From: a candidate division WOR-1 bacterium RIFCSPLOWO2_02_FULL_46_20 | GTDB taxonomy: Bacteria; Margulisbacteria; WOR-1; O2-12-FULL-45-9 | DNA length: 57,223 nt | Assembly: GCA_001771365.1 (NCBI GenBank) | Contig: METP01000048.1 | Coordinates: 1 to 57,223 of the forward strand | Reading direction: 5' to 3' | Shown here: piece by piece, positions 8,461-55,411 of the stretch | Layout of the letters: each line of letters opens with the position of its first letter | Position numbering within the stretch: position 1 is the first letter of the stretch | Notes under the pieces: generated by a model | Told to the model about the DNA's origin: nothing | What the model saw: only the letters and a program-made list of their open reading frames with translations | Databases searched by the model: none | Program-made: the position numbers and the translations under genes

Positions 8461-9561
8461 ATGAAAAATCAGAAATCCGAATCCTCACCCCGTCCCTCGA
8501 CTCGCTTCGCTCGCTCGGGACACCCCTCTCCATCGAAGATGGAGAGGGGAATGAATTCTCCGCCGCAGGCGGAGAAGAAAGGGGTGAGGTGGGTTATTTT
8601 GCTTTGGGTTTTGGTCATTTTTGTTGCCGGCTGCGCCCCAACCCGGAAGACAGGTCATGAAGGCCATGAGCCGGGTAAGAAGATATTGTTTTACCGTAAT
8701 CCGATGAATCCGCAAATTACTTCACCCGTGTTCATGAAAGATTCAATGGGGATGGATTACGTGCCGGTTTATGAACAGGCCAAAGGAGCGGCAGAAGGTG
8801 AAATATCTATCAGTTCTGATGAGCAGAAGCTCATCGGAGTTAAAACCGAACGAGTGGGGCGGCGCCAACTTTATAAAGAGATTCGCACAGTTGGGACGGT
8901 GGCTTATGACCCGGAGCTTTACGTGGCGCAGGAGGAATATCTTGGCGCGCTTGGTTTGAGCGATGAAGCGCTTATTGAATCCGGCCAAAAAAGATTAATG
9001 ATATTGGGTTTGAATGATGAGCAGATCGGTAGGTTGCAGAAAGAGGGTAAAGCGCAGGAGAATCTTATTCTGCCTGAAGAAGAGACCTGGGTTTATATCA
9101 CGATCTATGAGAATGAACTGGGCTTGGTTAAGGCGGGCACACCGGTGGAAATTGACACGATTGCTTTCCCGGGTGAGGCCTTTTATGGGAAAATCGCGGC
9201 GGTTTCTCCGGTGCTGGATCCCATGACCAGATCAGCAAAAGCCAGAGCGGAAGTTCAAAATCCCGGCCAAAAATTAAAGCCGAATATGTACGCCAACGTG
9301 AAGATCAAGATTGATCTGGGCAGCCGGTTAGCGGTTGATGAAGAAGCGGTTATTAATACCGGTAAGCGAACCCTGGTGGTGGTGGCCAAAGGTTCCGGCA
9401 ATTATCTTAGCCGCGAGGTGAAGTTGGGACAGAAAGCTGATGGTTATTATGAAGTTTTGGGCGGGTTGAAAGAAGGAGAGATGGCCGTAACCACTGGTAA
9501 TTTTCTAATCGATTCGGAATCACGCTTAAAGTCTACTAGTGGTGGCGAACATCAGCATTAA
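8461..9561 (+). CDS. cusB: RND periplasmic adaptor (CusB-like) with heavy-metal-binding motif
   Basis: 366 residues. After an odd, basic N-terminus (residues 8-43, encoded by a palindromic repeat) come a hydrophobic segment and lipobox VAGC (Cys58). Then follow YRNPMNPQ ... KDSMGMDYVPVYE (78-105), the heavy-metal-binding domain seen in CusB-like adaptors, and the barrel-sandwich/beta-barrel core with PNMYANVKI. It links the RND pump to the outer-membrane duct and hands over Cu/Ag. The true start may be GTG 8584, preceded by GAGAAGAAAGGG, which would remove the repeat-encoded part and give a normal lipoprotein signal. Confidence 0.85.
   Translation: MKNQKSESSPRPSTRFARSGHPSPSKMERGMNSPPQAEKKGVRWVILLWVLVIFVAGCAPTRKTGHEGHEPGKKILFYRNPMNPQITSPVFMKDSMGMDYVPVYEQAKGAAEGEISISSDEQKLIGVKTERVGRRQLYKEIRTVGTVAYDPELYVAQEEYLGALGLSDEALIESGQKRLMILGLNDEQIGRLQKEGKAQENLILPEEETWVYITIYENELGLVKAGTPVEIDTIAFPGEAFYGKIAAVSPVLDPMTRSAKARAEVQNPGQKLKPNMYANVKIKIDLGSRLAVDEEAVINTGKRTLVVVAKGSGNYLSREVKLGQKADGYYEVLGGLKEGEMAVTTGNFLIDSESRLKSTSGGEHQH
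8483..8589. repeat. Palindromic repeat (CCTCACCCC type) at the start of cusB
   Basis: Outer arms CCTCACCCC (8483-8491) and GGGGTGAGG (8581-8589) are perfect complements. Inside are a perfect 12-bp stem, CCCCTCTCCATC (8523-8534) with GATGGAGAGGGG (8538-8549), and a perfect 8-bp stem, TCTCCGCC (8557-8564) with GGCGGAGA (8568-8575). The same outer arms occur in metH at 28388-28447. The 107-bp element is open in the cusB frame. Confidence 0.85.
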
Positions 9562-27124: not shown

Positions 27125-27538
27125 ATGTTGAATATAGCGCCTCTAAAAGAAGAAGACATTGCGGCGGTGGTGGCAATTGAAAGCCTCTCTTTTAGCGCGC
27201 CCAAAGAAGAAGCTATCTTTAAAAGTGACCAAAACAAGTATTTGGTAGCCAGAGAAGATGGCGAAATTATTGGTTATATTGGCGTTGAAAAAATTTCCGG
27301 GGAGATTCATGTAATTAATATGGCCGTCGCCCCGGAACACCGAAACCAGGGAATAGGCAATAAGCTTATGGAAAAGATTCTTAATAATATTGATGTTTTC
27401 TTTTTGGAAGTGAGGGCTTCTAATCTTGCGGCGCAGGGGCTTTATGAGAAATTTGGTTTCAAGAAAGTGGGGGTCAGGAGAAGATATTATTCAAACAATG
27501 GCGAGGATGCTTGTCTTATGAGGAGAGAACCGAAGTGA
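27125..27538 (+). CDS. rimI: Ribosomal-protein-alanine acetyltransferase RimI-like (GNAT)
   Basis: 137 residues of the GNAT fold. The acetyl-CoA motif A reads VAPEHRNQGIGNKLMEKIL, followed by LEVRASNLAAQGLYEKFGFKKVGVRRRYY, the RimI pattern including the final Tyr. It follows tsaB as in many bacteria. RimI acetylates the N-terminus of ribosomal protein S18; the substrate here is assumed from family and neighbourhood. It shares GTGA with metH. Confidence 0.9.
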   Translation: MLNIAPLKEEDIAAVVAIESLSFSAPKEEAIFKSDQNKYLVAREDGEIIGYIGVEKISGEIHVINMAVAPEHRNQGIGNKLMEKILNNIDVFFLEVRASNLAAQGLYEKFGFKKVGVRRRYYSNNGEDACLMRREPK

Positions 27539-29988
27539 GCAAGTTTTTAGAAGAGCTGAATAAGAGAATATTGGTGATGGATGGTGCCATGGGTACACAA
27601 CTCATGGACAGAGGTGTGAGGCCGGAGGATTGTTTTGACGCGCAGAATTTAAAGAATCCGCGATTGGTTGAATCTGTCCATAAAGCCTATATTGACGCCG
27701 GCGCCGATATTGTTGAAACCAATACTTTTGGGGCGAATCGGATTAAGTTAGTTGATTATAAATTTGATAATAAGGCTGCTGAAATAAATATTGCCGCGGC
27801 CAAGATTGCCAGAAAAGCTGCCGGATCCAATAATTTTGTCCTTGGTTCAATTGGACCATTGGGGAAAATGCTCGATCCGCTGGGTAAAATCACTTTTGAT
27901 CAAGCTTATGAAGTTTTTGCTGAACAGGCCAGGGCGTTAGCCGAGGGTGGGGTTGACGCGATCATTATTGAAACCATTTCCGACCTTCAAGAAATGCGCG
28001 CCGCGGTTATTGCCGCGAAAAATAACACCAGATTGCCTGTTATTGCCAGCTTAACCTACGATGATGGCGAGAAAACAATTTACGGCACACCGCCTGAAGC
28101 GGCAGTTGTTGTCTTTGAAGCTTTAGGCGTTGATGTGATCTCAGCCAATTGTTCGACCGGGCCAGAGGGGATGCTAAAAGTATGTAGAAAGTTGTTAGCC
28201 GTAAGCAGTAAACCGATAATGGTCATGCCGAATGCCGGGATGCCTGAACTTATTGGCAATAAAGCTGTTTATAAGATGACGCCGGAAAAGTTCGGCAAGT
28301 TTGCGATCCAGTTCGCGAAATTGGGAGTGAGGATTGTTGGCGGGTGTTGTGGCACGGGGCCGGAACATATAAAGGCAGTAAGATTAACCCTCACCCCCAA
28401 CCTCTCTTCCCGAGGGAGAGGGGTGGCACGAAGTGGCGGGGTGAGGGGGGATTTTGCCAGCAGGACGAGGGTTGTTGAGGTTGAAGAAGGAAAAGTTTTA
28501 TTGGTCGGTGAAAGGATTAATCCTACGGGGAGAAACTTGCTTAAGGCAGAGATCCTGGCTGGCAAAACCCAGATTATACGCAGAGAGGCCGATGAGCAAA
28601 CTAAGGCCGGAGCAAGTCTTTTGGATGTGAATATTTCTATCGCGGATATTTCTGAGGCGGCGGCTATGCGGGCCGCGGTTAATGTCGTCCAGTCAACTTC
28701 GAATCTGCCCTTATCGATTGATAGCCCAAGTTTAGCCGGGGTTGAGTCTGGTTTGAAAAACTTTTGCGGTAGAGCCTTGCTAAATTCAGTCAATGGTAAG
28801 AATGAAAGTTTGGAGAAGGTTATTCCATTAGCCAAAAAATATGGGGCAGCTGTTATTGGCTTGGCCCTTGATGAACGTGGTATCCCCGCCACAGTTGAGG
28901 AGAGAGTGCGGATTGCCGAACGTATTGTCCGGACAGCAGAAGCAGCCGGGATTGCCAGAGAAGATGTATATATTGATAATTTGGTAATGACCGTTGGGGT
29001 TGGGATCCACGGAGCTCTTGATATTCTAAAAGCTATTTCCATGATCAAAGAGCGGCTGGGGGCCAAGACTATTTTGGGGATCAGCAATGTTTCGCACGGT
29101 ATGCCCAATCGCTCAAAATTAAATGCCTTGTATCTTCAATTGGCCATCACTTATGGGCTGGATGCGGCGATAGTTGATCCTACCGACAAAGAAATCCAAA
29201 AGGTTATTAAGGGTTCGTTAAGGCTCGTTAAGGCTAAGAAGGCTGAAGTCAGGGAGGGATTGATAAAGAAGTTTAGGGCTGAGGTGGATAAGGCGAGGAG
29301 ATCAGGGAAGCCGGCGGAGAAGAAGGGGGAAGCTGCGCTTCAGGAGATCCGGTTAACCGGGTATCCGGATATCCGGATTGCCGTTACTGATGGCGATGTT
29401 GATTTGGTTGAGGTTCTGGTAAAGCAGGCGTTGGAGAAAAAATATCCTCCCCAAAAAATAATTGATCAGGGTTTAGTGCCTGGTATGGCAGTGGTTGGCA
29501 AGAAGTTTAATCGCAAAGAATATTTTCTGCCCCAGGTAATCGAATCAGCCGAGGCCATGAGCAAAGGTTTTGAACTATGCAAGGCCAGGATACCAAAGGA
29601 GAAGACCAGGTCAGCGGGCAAGGTTCTTTTGGCTACTGTTAAAGGGGATATCCATGATATTGGCAAGAATATTGTGAAGATGCTCTTGGAAAACCATGGT
29701 TTTGAGATTATTGACCTGGGGAAAGATGTTGATCCCGAGGAAATTGTTAGCGTTGCCAAAAAAGCCAAACCGGACGTTATTGCTTTATCCGCACTGTTGA
29801 CTACGACCATGGTTGAAATGGGTATAGTTAACGATGAGCTGAAAAAAGCCAAACTTGATATTCCCCTCTTAGTTGGTGGGGCGGTGGTAACAAAGGGCTA
29901 TGCCGACAGAATTGGCGCTTCTTACAGCCTCGATGCGGTGGGGGCGGCGATGTTAGCCAAGAAAATTATGAAATCGGTCAAAAAATAG
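27535..29988 (+). CDS. metH: Cobalamin-dependent methionine synthase MetH, lacking the reactivation domain
   Basis: 817 residues, GTG start at 27535 coupled to rimI (GTGA; GGAGAG upstream). Domain 1 (to ~285) is the homocysteine-binding barrel: DGAMGTQL, ETNTFGANR and the zinc ligands VGGCCGTGPEH. Domain 2 (~305-570) is the folate-binding barrel from LVGERINPTGR. Domain 3 (~620-817) is the cap and B12-binding domain with DIHDIGKNIVKMLLENHGF, whose His binds cobalt. The C-terminal AdoMet-dependent reactivation domain of the ~1200-residue enzyme is absent, so another protein must reactivate it. Two repeat-derived inserts lie in the linkers (about 285-304 and 605-614). Confidence 0.93.
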   Translation: MSKFLEELNKRILVMDGAMGTQLMDRGVRPEDCFDAQNLKNPRLVESVHKAYIDAGADIVETNTFGANRIKLVDYKFDNKAAEINIAAAKIARKAAGSNNFVLGSIGPLGKMLDPLGKITFDQAYEVFAEQARALAEGGVDAIIIETISDLQEMRAAVIAAKNNTRLPVIASLTYDDGEKTIYGTPPEAAVVVFEALGVDVISANCSTGPEGMLKVCRKLLAVSSKPIMVMPNAGMPELIGNKAVYKMTPEKFGKFAIQFAKLGVRIVGGCCGTGPEHIKAVRLTLTPNLSSRGRGVARSGGVRGDFASRTRVVEVEEGKVLLVGERINPTGRNLLKAEILAGKTQIIRREADEQTKAGASLLDVNISIADISEAAAMRAAVNVVQSTSNLPLSIDSPSLAGVESGLKNFCGRALLNSVNGKNESLEKVIPLAKKYGAAVIGLALDERGIPATVEERVRIAERIVRTAEAAGIAREDVYIDNLVMTVGVGIHGALDILKAISMIKERLGAKTILGISNVSHGMPNRSKLNALYLQLAITYGLDAAIVDPTDKEIQKVIKGSLRLVKAKKAEVREGLIKKFRAEVDKARRSGKPAEKKGEAALQEIRLTGYPDIRIAVTDGDVDLVEVLVKQALEKKYPPQKIIDQGLVPGMAVVGKKFNRKEYFLPQVIESAEAMSKGFELCKARIPKEKTRSAGKVLLATVKGDIHDIGKNIVKMLLENHGFEIIDLGKDVDPEEIVSVAKKAKPDVIALSALLTTTMVEMGIVNDELKKAKLDIPLLVGGAVVTKGYADRIGASYSLDAVGAAMLAKKIMKSVKK
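28388..28447. repeat. Palindromic repeat (CCTCACCCC type) inside metH
   Basis: A 60-bp element with perfect 10-bp arms, CCCTCACCCC (28388-28397) and GGGGTGAGGG (28438-28447), and an inner CCTCTC/GAGAGG pairing. It is in frame and encodes about 20 residues exactly between the homocysteine and folate domains. It shares its outer arms with the element in cusB. Confidence 0.85.
29347..29376. repeat. 30-bp repeat (ATCCGGTTA type) inside metH
   Basis: This 30-mer matches 28 of 30 bases at 55199-55228 in murE, differing only at two positions. It contains the palindrome CCGGATATCCGG. In both genes it is read in the same frame, giving RLTGYPDIR here and RLPGYPDIR in MurE. In MetH it lies in the linker before the B12 domain. 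Confidence 0.85.
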
Positions 29989-54017: not shown

Positions 54018-55411
54018 CTATTACCTACGATTCGAGAAAAGTTAGGCCCGGAGACGTGTTTGTGGCAATCCCGGGGTTCAAAGTTGACGGAACAGATTTT
54101 ATCCGTCAGGCTATAGCCAACGGAGCTAAAGTTATTGTAGCCGAAAATGAGGTTAAAGTTCCGGCTGGGGTAAAGTTTGAAAAAGTCCCTTGTGCCCGCA
54201 AAGCTTTGGCCCGTCTGGCCAATAAATTCTATGATTATCCTTCTAAAAAGATAAAATTGATCGGTATAACCGGCACTAATGGGAAAACCACGACCTCGTA
54301 TCTTATAGCTTCAATTCTCAAAAAAGCCGGTTACAAGGTTGGAGTGATTGGGACGATCAACGGTGGTTTAACTACGCCGGAGTCGCTCGATTTGCAGGAA
54401 ATGCTGGCGGATATGGTTGAGCAGGGGATAACCCACGTGGTGCTGGAGGTCTCTTCGCACGCTTTGGCTTTGGATCGGGTGTCCGGTTGTGATTTTGATA
54501 TTGCCATTTTTACCAATTTGACTCACGATCATTTAGATTTTCATAAAACAAAAAAAGAATATCTGGCGACCAAGCTAAAACTTTTCGAGAATCTCAAACA
54601 AGATGGGGTTGCCATCGTGAATGTTGATGACCCGGCCAGTAAAGATATTTTTGAGGTAGTTCAAGGTGAGATTGTGACCTATGGAGTGGGTCAGGCCAGG
54701 CATGAACTGCGCAGCACCAAACATAATGAGTTTGATACTAAGGTTTCCGGAATTGCCATAAGACAAGATTCCATGAGCTTAACAATTAATTCGCGGGAGC
54801 TGCGCACCCCATTAATAGGTATACCCAATGTCTATAATATAGCAGCGGCCTATCAATGCGCCTTAGTTCTGAATATTCCGCAAATGATAATTAAAAAAGG
54901 GATTGAGGCTTTGCAGGGTGTGCCAGGCCGAGTTGAGCGTATTGATTTTGGTCAGCCATTTTCGGTTGTCGTCGATTTTGCTCATTCCCCGGATGCTTTG
55001 CAAAAATTAATCGAAACTTATCGACCGTTAACCGAAGGAAAAATTATTCTTGTCTTTGGTTGTCCTGGGGATCGAGACAAAGACAAGCGACCGGTGATGG
55101 GGGGGATTGCGGCGAAGCTGGCTGACGTTTCTATTATTACTACTGATGATCCGCGTAGTGAGCATCCTGCAAGTATAGTGGATAATATTGTCGCGGGTAT
55201 CCGGTTACCCGGTTATCCGGATATCCGGGACCGCTGCCGCATAATTATCGACAGACGGGAGGCTATCAGGAAGGCTTTGGAACTGGCCGAAAAAGGAGAT
55301 ACTGTGCTTATAGCGGGACGGGGTCATGAGAAGTATCAGGATTTTAATGGTAAAAAAGTGGAGATTGATGATAAGATTGAAGTTGGGCGAATATTAAATG
55401 CGCACAATTGA
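54014..55411 (+). CDS. murE: UDP-MurNAc-tripeptide synthetase MurE
   Basis: 465 residues. YDSRKVRPGDVFVAIPG at the start, ATP loop GITGTNGKTTTSYLI, LEVSSHALALDRV, FTNLTHDHLDFHKT, VVDFAHSPDAL and the C-terminal TTDDPRSEHP with the Arg that selects diaminopimelate (DNPR-like; Lys-adding enzymes lack this Arg), then LIAGRGHEKYQ. It adds meso-diaminopimelate to UDP-MurNAc-L-Ala-D-Glu. Residues about 395-405 (RLPGYPDIRD) come from a repeat shared with metH. It overlaps mtnA by 14 bases. Confidence 0.95.
   Translation: MTITYDSRKVRPGDVFVAIPGFKVDGTDFIRQAIANGAKVIVAENEVKVPAGVKFEKVPCARKALARLANKFYDYPSKKIKLIGITGTNGKTTTSYLIASILKKAGYKVGVIGTINGGLTTPESLDLQEMLADMVEQGITHVVLEVSSHALALDRVSGCDFDIAIFTNLTHDHLDFHKTKKEYLATKLKLFENLKQDGVAIVNVDDPASKDIFEVVQGEIVTYGVGQARHELRSTKHNEFDTKVSGIAIRQDSMSLTINSRELRTPLIGIPNVYNIAAAYQCALVLNIPQMIIKKGIEALQGVPGRVERIDFGQPFSVVVDFAHSPDALQKLIETYRPLTEGKIILVFGCPGDRDKDKRPVMGGIAAKLADVSIITTDDPRSEHPASIVDNIVAGIRLPGYPDIRDRCRIIIDRREAIRKALELAEKGDTVLIAGRGHEKYQDFNGKKVEIDDKIEVGRILNAHN
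55199..55228. repeat. 30-bp repeat (ATCCGGTTA type) inside murE
   Basis: Partner of 29347-29376 in metH with 28 of 30 bases identical and the same reading frame (RLPGYPDIR). It contains CCGGATATCCGG. In MurE it falls in the loop between VDNIVAGI and the conserved RIIIDRREAI. Confidence 0.85.

Follow-up and report, generated by a model that had tools for sequence, protein, structure and literature searches.

The window, by which we mean the whole 57,223-nucleotide stretch analysed here, comes from a MAG of 1.37 Mb (86% complete) whose closest named relatives are Candidatus Saganbacteria / WOR-1 of the phylum Margulisiibacteriota. It carries a metH gene that is interrupted, in frame, by a nested palindrome of 60 bp (Table 1). 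The palindrome amounts to 20 codons and adds neither a stop nor a change of frame. A sequence-only reading had placed it at the linker between the homocysteine and folate domains, and this placement is borne out by the Pfam borders, since the palindrome falls between S-methyl_trans (residues 13-283) and Pterin_bind (326-548). Model confidence is low in the middle of the insert (pLDDT below 50 at residues 292-303 in AlphaFold2 with a 20-sequence alignment; mean pLDDT 86). The insert is thus predicted to be a disordered peptide joining two well-folded barrels. As RNA, the palindrome folds with -50.3 kcal/mol (z = -4.9 against shuffles), and a search of the window for known RNA families (Rfam) returned a tRNA only. 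The arm sequence CCTCACCCC occurs five times in the window against 0.47 expected, a count reached in 0 of 100 shuffles, and the fifth match (53946), a lone arm in an unrelated context, is probably due to chance. Separately, 8-bp repeats (ATCCGGTTAACCGGGTATCCGGATATCCGG) lie near the second metH linker at 29339-29384 (peptide EIRLTGYPDIR) and recur in another gene at 55191-55236; relatives have ATCAGGTTATCAGGATATCAGG (LSGYQDI) at the second-linker site.

Table 1. Features of the window that bear on the palindromic repeat.
Feature	Position	Strand	Basis
metH (homocysteine, folate, B12 domains; 817 aa)	27535..29988	+	ORF + Pfam
Palindromic repeat of family A within the Hcy/Fol linker of metH, in frame; encodes roughly TLTPNLSSRGRGVARSGGVRG	28388..28447	+	
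Outer arm CCCTCACCCC of the metH copy	28388..28397	+	
Inner hairpin CCTCTCTTCCC-GA-GGGAGAGGGG of the metH copy; CCTCTCC..GGAGAGG core copied imperfectly	28401..28423	+	
Nested mini-palindrome GGCACGAAGTGGC in the metH copy, one mismatch; perfect in the truB copy (GGCACTTCGTGCC)	28425..28437	+	
Outer arm GGGGTGAGGG of the metH copy	28438..28447	+	
cusB-like efflux adaptor ORF	8461..9561	+	ORF + Pfam
Copy of family A at the cusB N-terminus, ahead of the lipoprotein signal peptide, containing two additional nested palindromes; GTG at 8584 a possible real start	8483..8589	+	

The cusB-like ORF contains another member of what we call family A. Its outer arms had been taken to equal those of the metH copy; they are indeed shared, over 9 bp rather than 10 (TCCTCACCCC...GGGGTGAGGT in cusB). 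That this copy is coding is uncertain: because it sits at the extreme N-terminus, ahead of the signal peptide, it may lie upstream of the true start, and the GTG within its right arm is in frame. The cusB copy may therefore be untranslated. About six further family A copies in one relative, genome G001, come right after a start codon and ahead of a signal peptide, and these too may be upstream of their genes, the right arm GGGGTGAGG offering an in-frame GTG start as in cusB. The same caution about start sites has been voiced for REPs (PMC3733652). A family A copy is found between the first codons and the signal peptide both at 8461-8600 of the window and at the G001 loci L130, L135, L137, L142, L165 and L167; judged from the sequence, the arm GGGGTGAGG, read in frame as GTG AGG, may give exported proteins their start codon and first Arg.

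Family A is not restricted to metH and cusB. The source genome holds six copies, in metH, truB, tgt and the cusB N-terminus and at two intergenic sites. The truB copy occupies a loop ahead of the MYSAVK segment and the tgt copy is short and degenerate; both proteins are otherwise normal, judged by NCBIfam and by alignments to solved structures in which the insert falls in a variable stretch. The core CCTCTCC-N0-14-GGAGAGG is present in 43 of 57 related genomes at 0-69 copies per genome (reversed control, 0-1), the highest count being 69 copies in 1.1 Mb. Within a genome the copies resemble each other in loops and spacers (CCTCTCCCnnnGGGAGAGG in G001, with a full element of 56-80 bp; CCTCTCCATCnnnGATGGAGAGG in G028, often with a second core at a distance of 50-95 bp), a likeness that suggests recent amplification. 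On contigs C3, C4, C5 and C9 of G028, the loops of core pairs 50-95 bp apart differ, one being of the GATGGAGAGG type and the other of the CACTTCGTG type, and the arrangement resembles that of paired triplex motifs in E. coli. Contig ends in G001 (C9, C12, C92, C106, C111) often lie within 100 bases of family A copies, so the repeats are likely to interrupt the assembly, and the copy counts should be read as minima.

How many of these copies reside inside genes was measured on genome stretches, with a copy counted as genic when at least 60 codons inside an ORF; G001 was examined in full, and arbitrary first copies were taken in other genomes. Eight of the 40 copies in G001 lie that deep, in Lnt, NadB, lipoate ligase (LplA), LeuRS, MetH, PriA, a surface protein and one unknown protein, and RsmH has a further copy nearer the gene start. 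The copies in Lnt, PriA and MetH fall between two Pfam domains, that in NadB separates the FAD domain from the C-terminal domain, and that in LeuRS is in a variable loop where the anticodon-domain helices begin. In G028, 4 of 35 copies pass the same rule, and one of the four separates domains I and II of a phosphoglucomutase. Given that most of a bacterial genome is coding, genic copies are fewer than random insertion would give, and this depletion, together with the in-frame state of the copies that survive, is the expected remainder after selection against gene breakage.

An alignment of MetH from 30 Margulisbacterial genomes reveals that the linker is a site where such repeats recur. In 24 of the 30 proteins the linker looks repeat-derived, and the repeats belong to unrelated families: family A in 6 genomes, family B (GGAACCGCG..CGCAGGTTCC) in 2-3 genomes and in one more alongside A, family C (AT-rich 7-bp arrays, CGAAATN) in about 10, and other hairpins or repeats in several, with the labels given partly by eye for class C and some of the other hairpins. 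Ordinary sequence occupies the linker in six genomes, mostly the more distant ones, and the peptide encoded by the palindrome is absent from MetH of distant taxa. Strict hairpins (at least 9 bp) occur at 3.72 per kb in the first metH linker (8 in 2,151 bp) and at 0.07 per kb elsewhere (4 in 58,248 bp), an excess of about 50-fold (Fisher p = 1e-9). The LeuRS and TruB loops show the same excess (p = 0.003 each), and some of the remaining LeuRS and TruB hairpins are again copies of A or of a further family, D, at a second loop. A single ancestral insertion in MetH was considered and is not supported by a tree built without the linker, in which the six A-type linkers require six changes, of which well-supported branches force three; this count is weakened by long branches and open forks in the tree, and the insertions in G000 and G001 are possibly not independent. 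One MetH (G009:C22:120568-123024; L048, L061) has a partly duplicated GGCCGT-type motif (GGCGGTGPEHIHQVSIIGGCCGTTPDHI) right before the linker.

Measured from GGCCGT to the next SR, the linker spans 28-40 residues when it contains repeats, whatever their family, 31-35 residues when it does not, and 33 residues in the MetH of the window. Because the length is nearly constant, the repeat DNA appears to have replaced the native linker rather than lengthened it. The earlier reading of an in-frame insertion in MetH is supported, with the qualification that the linker gained no net length. No exact empty site was found at the nucleotide level, the nearest MetH genes being about 70-74% identical, and an order of insertion followed by deletion is what the lengths suggest. 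In every MetH linker examined the frame is kept and free of stops, over an aligned stretch that varies from 147 to 189 bp, and the frame is likewise kept at the LeuRS, TruB and MutS sites. The repeats themselves are permissive: stop-free frames number 4 of 6 for A, 4-5 of 6 for B and 6 of 6 for C.

Families B and D have the features of another type of repeat. Family B occurs in 18 of 57 genomes, with no matches to the control, and the two sides of its stems change in concert (GAC/GTC, GGC/GCC, GAA/TTC, GAG/CTC). Of 30 copies examined, 18 pass the 60-codon rule and 15 lie within enzyme bodies, after three were left out, namely L258, whose ORF is likely a spurious antisense frame, and the N-terminal copies in HemW (L255) and a BtuF-like protein (L276). 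The 15 are in MoeA, MiaB, LeuRS (2), MetH (2), BioF, ValRS, LarB, ProRS, a copper ATPase, MutS (3) and Lnt; the two copies of the source genome are in LeuRS and Lnt. In G007, G009 (two copies), G012 and G021, family B is found no more than 450 bp from a Y1_Tnp (RAYT) gene, and family D (CCCCACA..TGTGGGG) stands on both sides of RAYT genes in G011, G023 and G025. Family D is also found inside MutS of the source genome, G011, G014 and G017; MutS sites hold B, D or neither, depending on the species. B and D thus fit REP/RAYT systems that are here largely intragenic. The distinct arrays of family C number 37, and a comparison of positions by hand puts about 9 of them in ORFs for MetH or large class I tRNA synthetases. 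A RAYT gene is located beside or near mutS at G009:C16:21335-23877, G011:C11:34480-36993, G007:C85, G018:C1, G010:C1 and G012:C34, in several cases near truB; this looks like a vertically kept locus whose neighbour mutS carries REPs. Three MutS proteins from three genera (L265 in G007, L274 in G013, L275 in G018) each have two separate REP-derived loops, at the same two sites.

Why would a palindrome reside in the MetH linker? In our view it is probably one copy of a dispersed, non-autonomous repeat of a selfish kind: such repeats would land widely, the in-frame copies in tolerant linkers and loops would survive, and the native sequence would be displaced. Families A, B/D (REPs tied to RAYT) and C (AT-rich arrays) would insert throughout Saganbacteria genomes and gene-breaking copies would be lost, leaving copies that are either intergenic or open and in frame in a flexible linker or loop. 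Coding copies would survive because most of their frames are free of stops and encode a polar, disordered peptide. Flanking native linker would be deleted over time, restoring the usual length in a sequence made of repeat, and the same linker could later be recolonised by other families, with each replacement close to neutral and the host protein expected to work normally. The data are MAGs throughout, and translation of the insert is presumed.

The part of this account with the least direct backing is the mobility of family A, for which the case is indirect. It is possible, if rather doubtful, that family A is not transposed at all and owes its origin or spread to gene conversion, replication slippage or triplex-induced repair. 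In E. coli, triplex motifs have been linked to rearrangements and to no known mobile element (PMC4666352). No family A copy is adjacent to a RAYT gene in 32 RAYT loci, the nearest being about 0.7 and 0.9 kb away, and no target-site duplication was seen in the flanks of A or B copies. A RAYT as mobiliser of family A is indeed unsupported, since Y1_Tnp was detected in none of the high-copy genomes G001, G014 and G028 and RAYT genes are not flanked by A. However, G028 keeps about 21 family B copies without a detected RAYT in an incomplete MAG, so the absence of RAYT from single MAGs is weak evidence, and elements of the IS200/REP type normally lack target-site duplications as well. The species-specific versions of loop and spacer, and copy numbers of up to 69, look like bursts of amplification.

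Three further scenarios were weighed. It is improbable that the peptides themselves are useful, with repeats co-opted to diversify linkers and repeat-built linkers favoured by selection. The repeated use of the same sites by different families and the conserved linker length would fit such a role, but the families and frames share no peptide, relatives have the same sites without repeats, and tolerance alone accounts for the pattern. Less probable still is that the hairpin is kept for a role in mRNA or DNA, either slowing the ribosome at the domain boundary while the first domain folds or serving as a processing site. The metH palindrome is placed exactly at a domain boundary and folds very stably, and the copies in Lnt, PriA and phosphoglucomutase are also between domains. 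Such a role is nevertheless unlikely because structure-poor AT-rich arrays occupy the same MetH linker in many relatives, while distant ones have no repeat there; moreover, in the metH copy the inner stem is decayed, and the copies in TruB, Tgt, RsmH and MoeA are in loops within a domain. Finally, although mobile hairpins that ribosomes skip are known in other systems, it is hardly credible that the repeat is removed from the RNA or bypassed to give a protein without the peptide, because the frame is kept at the MetH, LeuRS, TruB and MutS sites examined and all MetH linkers among them are stop-free, neither of which excision or bypass would need.

If the selfish-repeat interpretation is taken one step further, it is tempting to propose, tentatively and as something we would not yet bet on, that the interdomain linkers and variable loops of conserved enzymes in Saganbacteria are a standing habitat of mobile repeats. 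Unrelated families (the triplex motif, two RAYT-linked REPs and the AT-rich 7-bp arrays) would overwrite one linker time and again without altering its length, and much of the linker sequence would be of mobile-DNA origin. This would be a distinct and ongoing mode of protein-linker evolution rather than a series of rare accidents. Until now, palindromic repeats within coding genes have mostly been viewed as a peculiarity of Rickettsia; in the present genomes they turn up throughout a class related to Cyanobacteria, in enzymes of metabolism, translation and repair, and a motif known as intergenic becomes coding. About 30 species can be compared at the same site, which makes it testable whether recurrence reflects the target choice of the element or the tolerance of the protein; that unrelated families share one linker favours tolerance. 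MetH, LeuRS, TruB and MutS offer natural libraries of linker replacements of near-constant length.

As to known systems, a literature search with the sequence CCCTCACCC returned nothing relevant, and sequences related to family A also occur in plasmids of cyanobacteria and Proteobacteria. The closest likeness is to the triplex motif (TM / TM-ECO; Holder et al. 2015, PMC4666352), whose plan, CCCTCTCCC-loop-GGGAGAGGG-short loop-GGGTGAGGG, is that of family A. Read on the minus strand, the metH copy is CCCCTCTCCC-TCG-GGAAGAGAGG-TT-GGGGGTGAGGG, which follows the triplex layout of a pyrimidine arm, a loop, a purine arm, a loop of 1-6 nt and a third purine strand, with TCG and TT as loops and an imperfect purine arm; in the C50 copy the core is clean and the third strand carries a single change. 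Among the copies read in G001, only about 10 have a second loop of at most 7 nt and most have 14-21 nt, so family A agrees with the layout in part. By sequence, family A appears to match the G/C-rich intrastrand triplex motif, with the differences that most copies have a 14-21 nt spacer before the third strand and that some copies contain nested mini-palindromes; it may be either a composite form or the parent of that motif. The triplex motif is found in many phyla, and its E. coli copies are always intergenic (PMC4666352), whereas family A occurs in frame within genes for conserved enzymes; 8 of the 40 copies of G001 are genic, as are those in metH, truB and tgt of the source genome.

The palindromic elements of Rickettsia are likewise in-frame palindromes in many conserved genes, including truB, and about half of their copies are genic (PMC10969869, PMC3733652). 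The parallel that the sequence-only reading drew to them in an unrelated lineage is supported, on a larger scale than the window alone can show, and intragenic palindromes outside Rickettsia were known before from Opitutus, Thauera and Xanthomonas (PMC3733652). RPE-4/6 end in CGTC, unlike the family A arms CCCTCACC/GGTGAGGG, and in Saganbacteria unrelated families share one linker across species with net length kept. Families B and D work like the intragenic GTAG/CGTC REPs of Opitutus terrae, Thauera, Xanthomonas and Stenotrophomonas (PMC3733652), from which family A differs in having neither a GTAG tag at its ends nor a RAYT. Those REPs were reported in coding regions of repair genes, tRNA synthetases and truB, with flexible linkers and loops proposed as the tolerated sites, and different REPs at about the same protein site were reported only for recB of two Xanthomonas species (PMC3733652). 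Bacterial MITEs such as ERIC and Correia are also short, non-autonomous inverted repeats able to fuse in frame, but they have terminal inverted repeats with TA target duplications (PMC2229807), of which none was seen here. What is new is the lineage, the coding form of the triplex motif and the reuse of one linker by unrelated families with its length kept.
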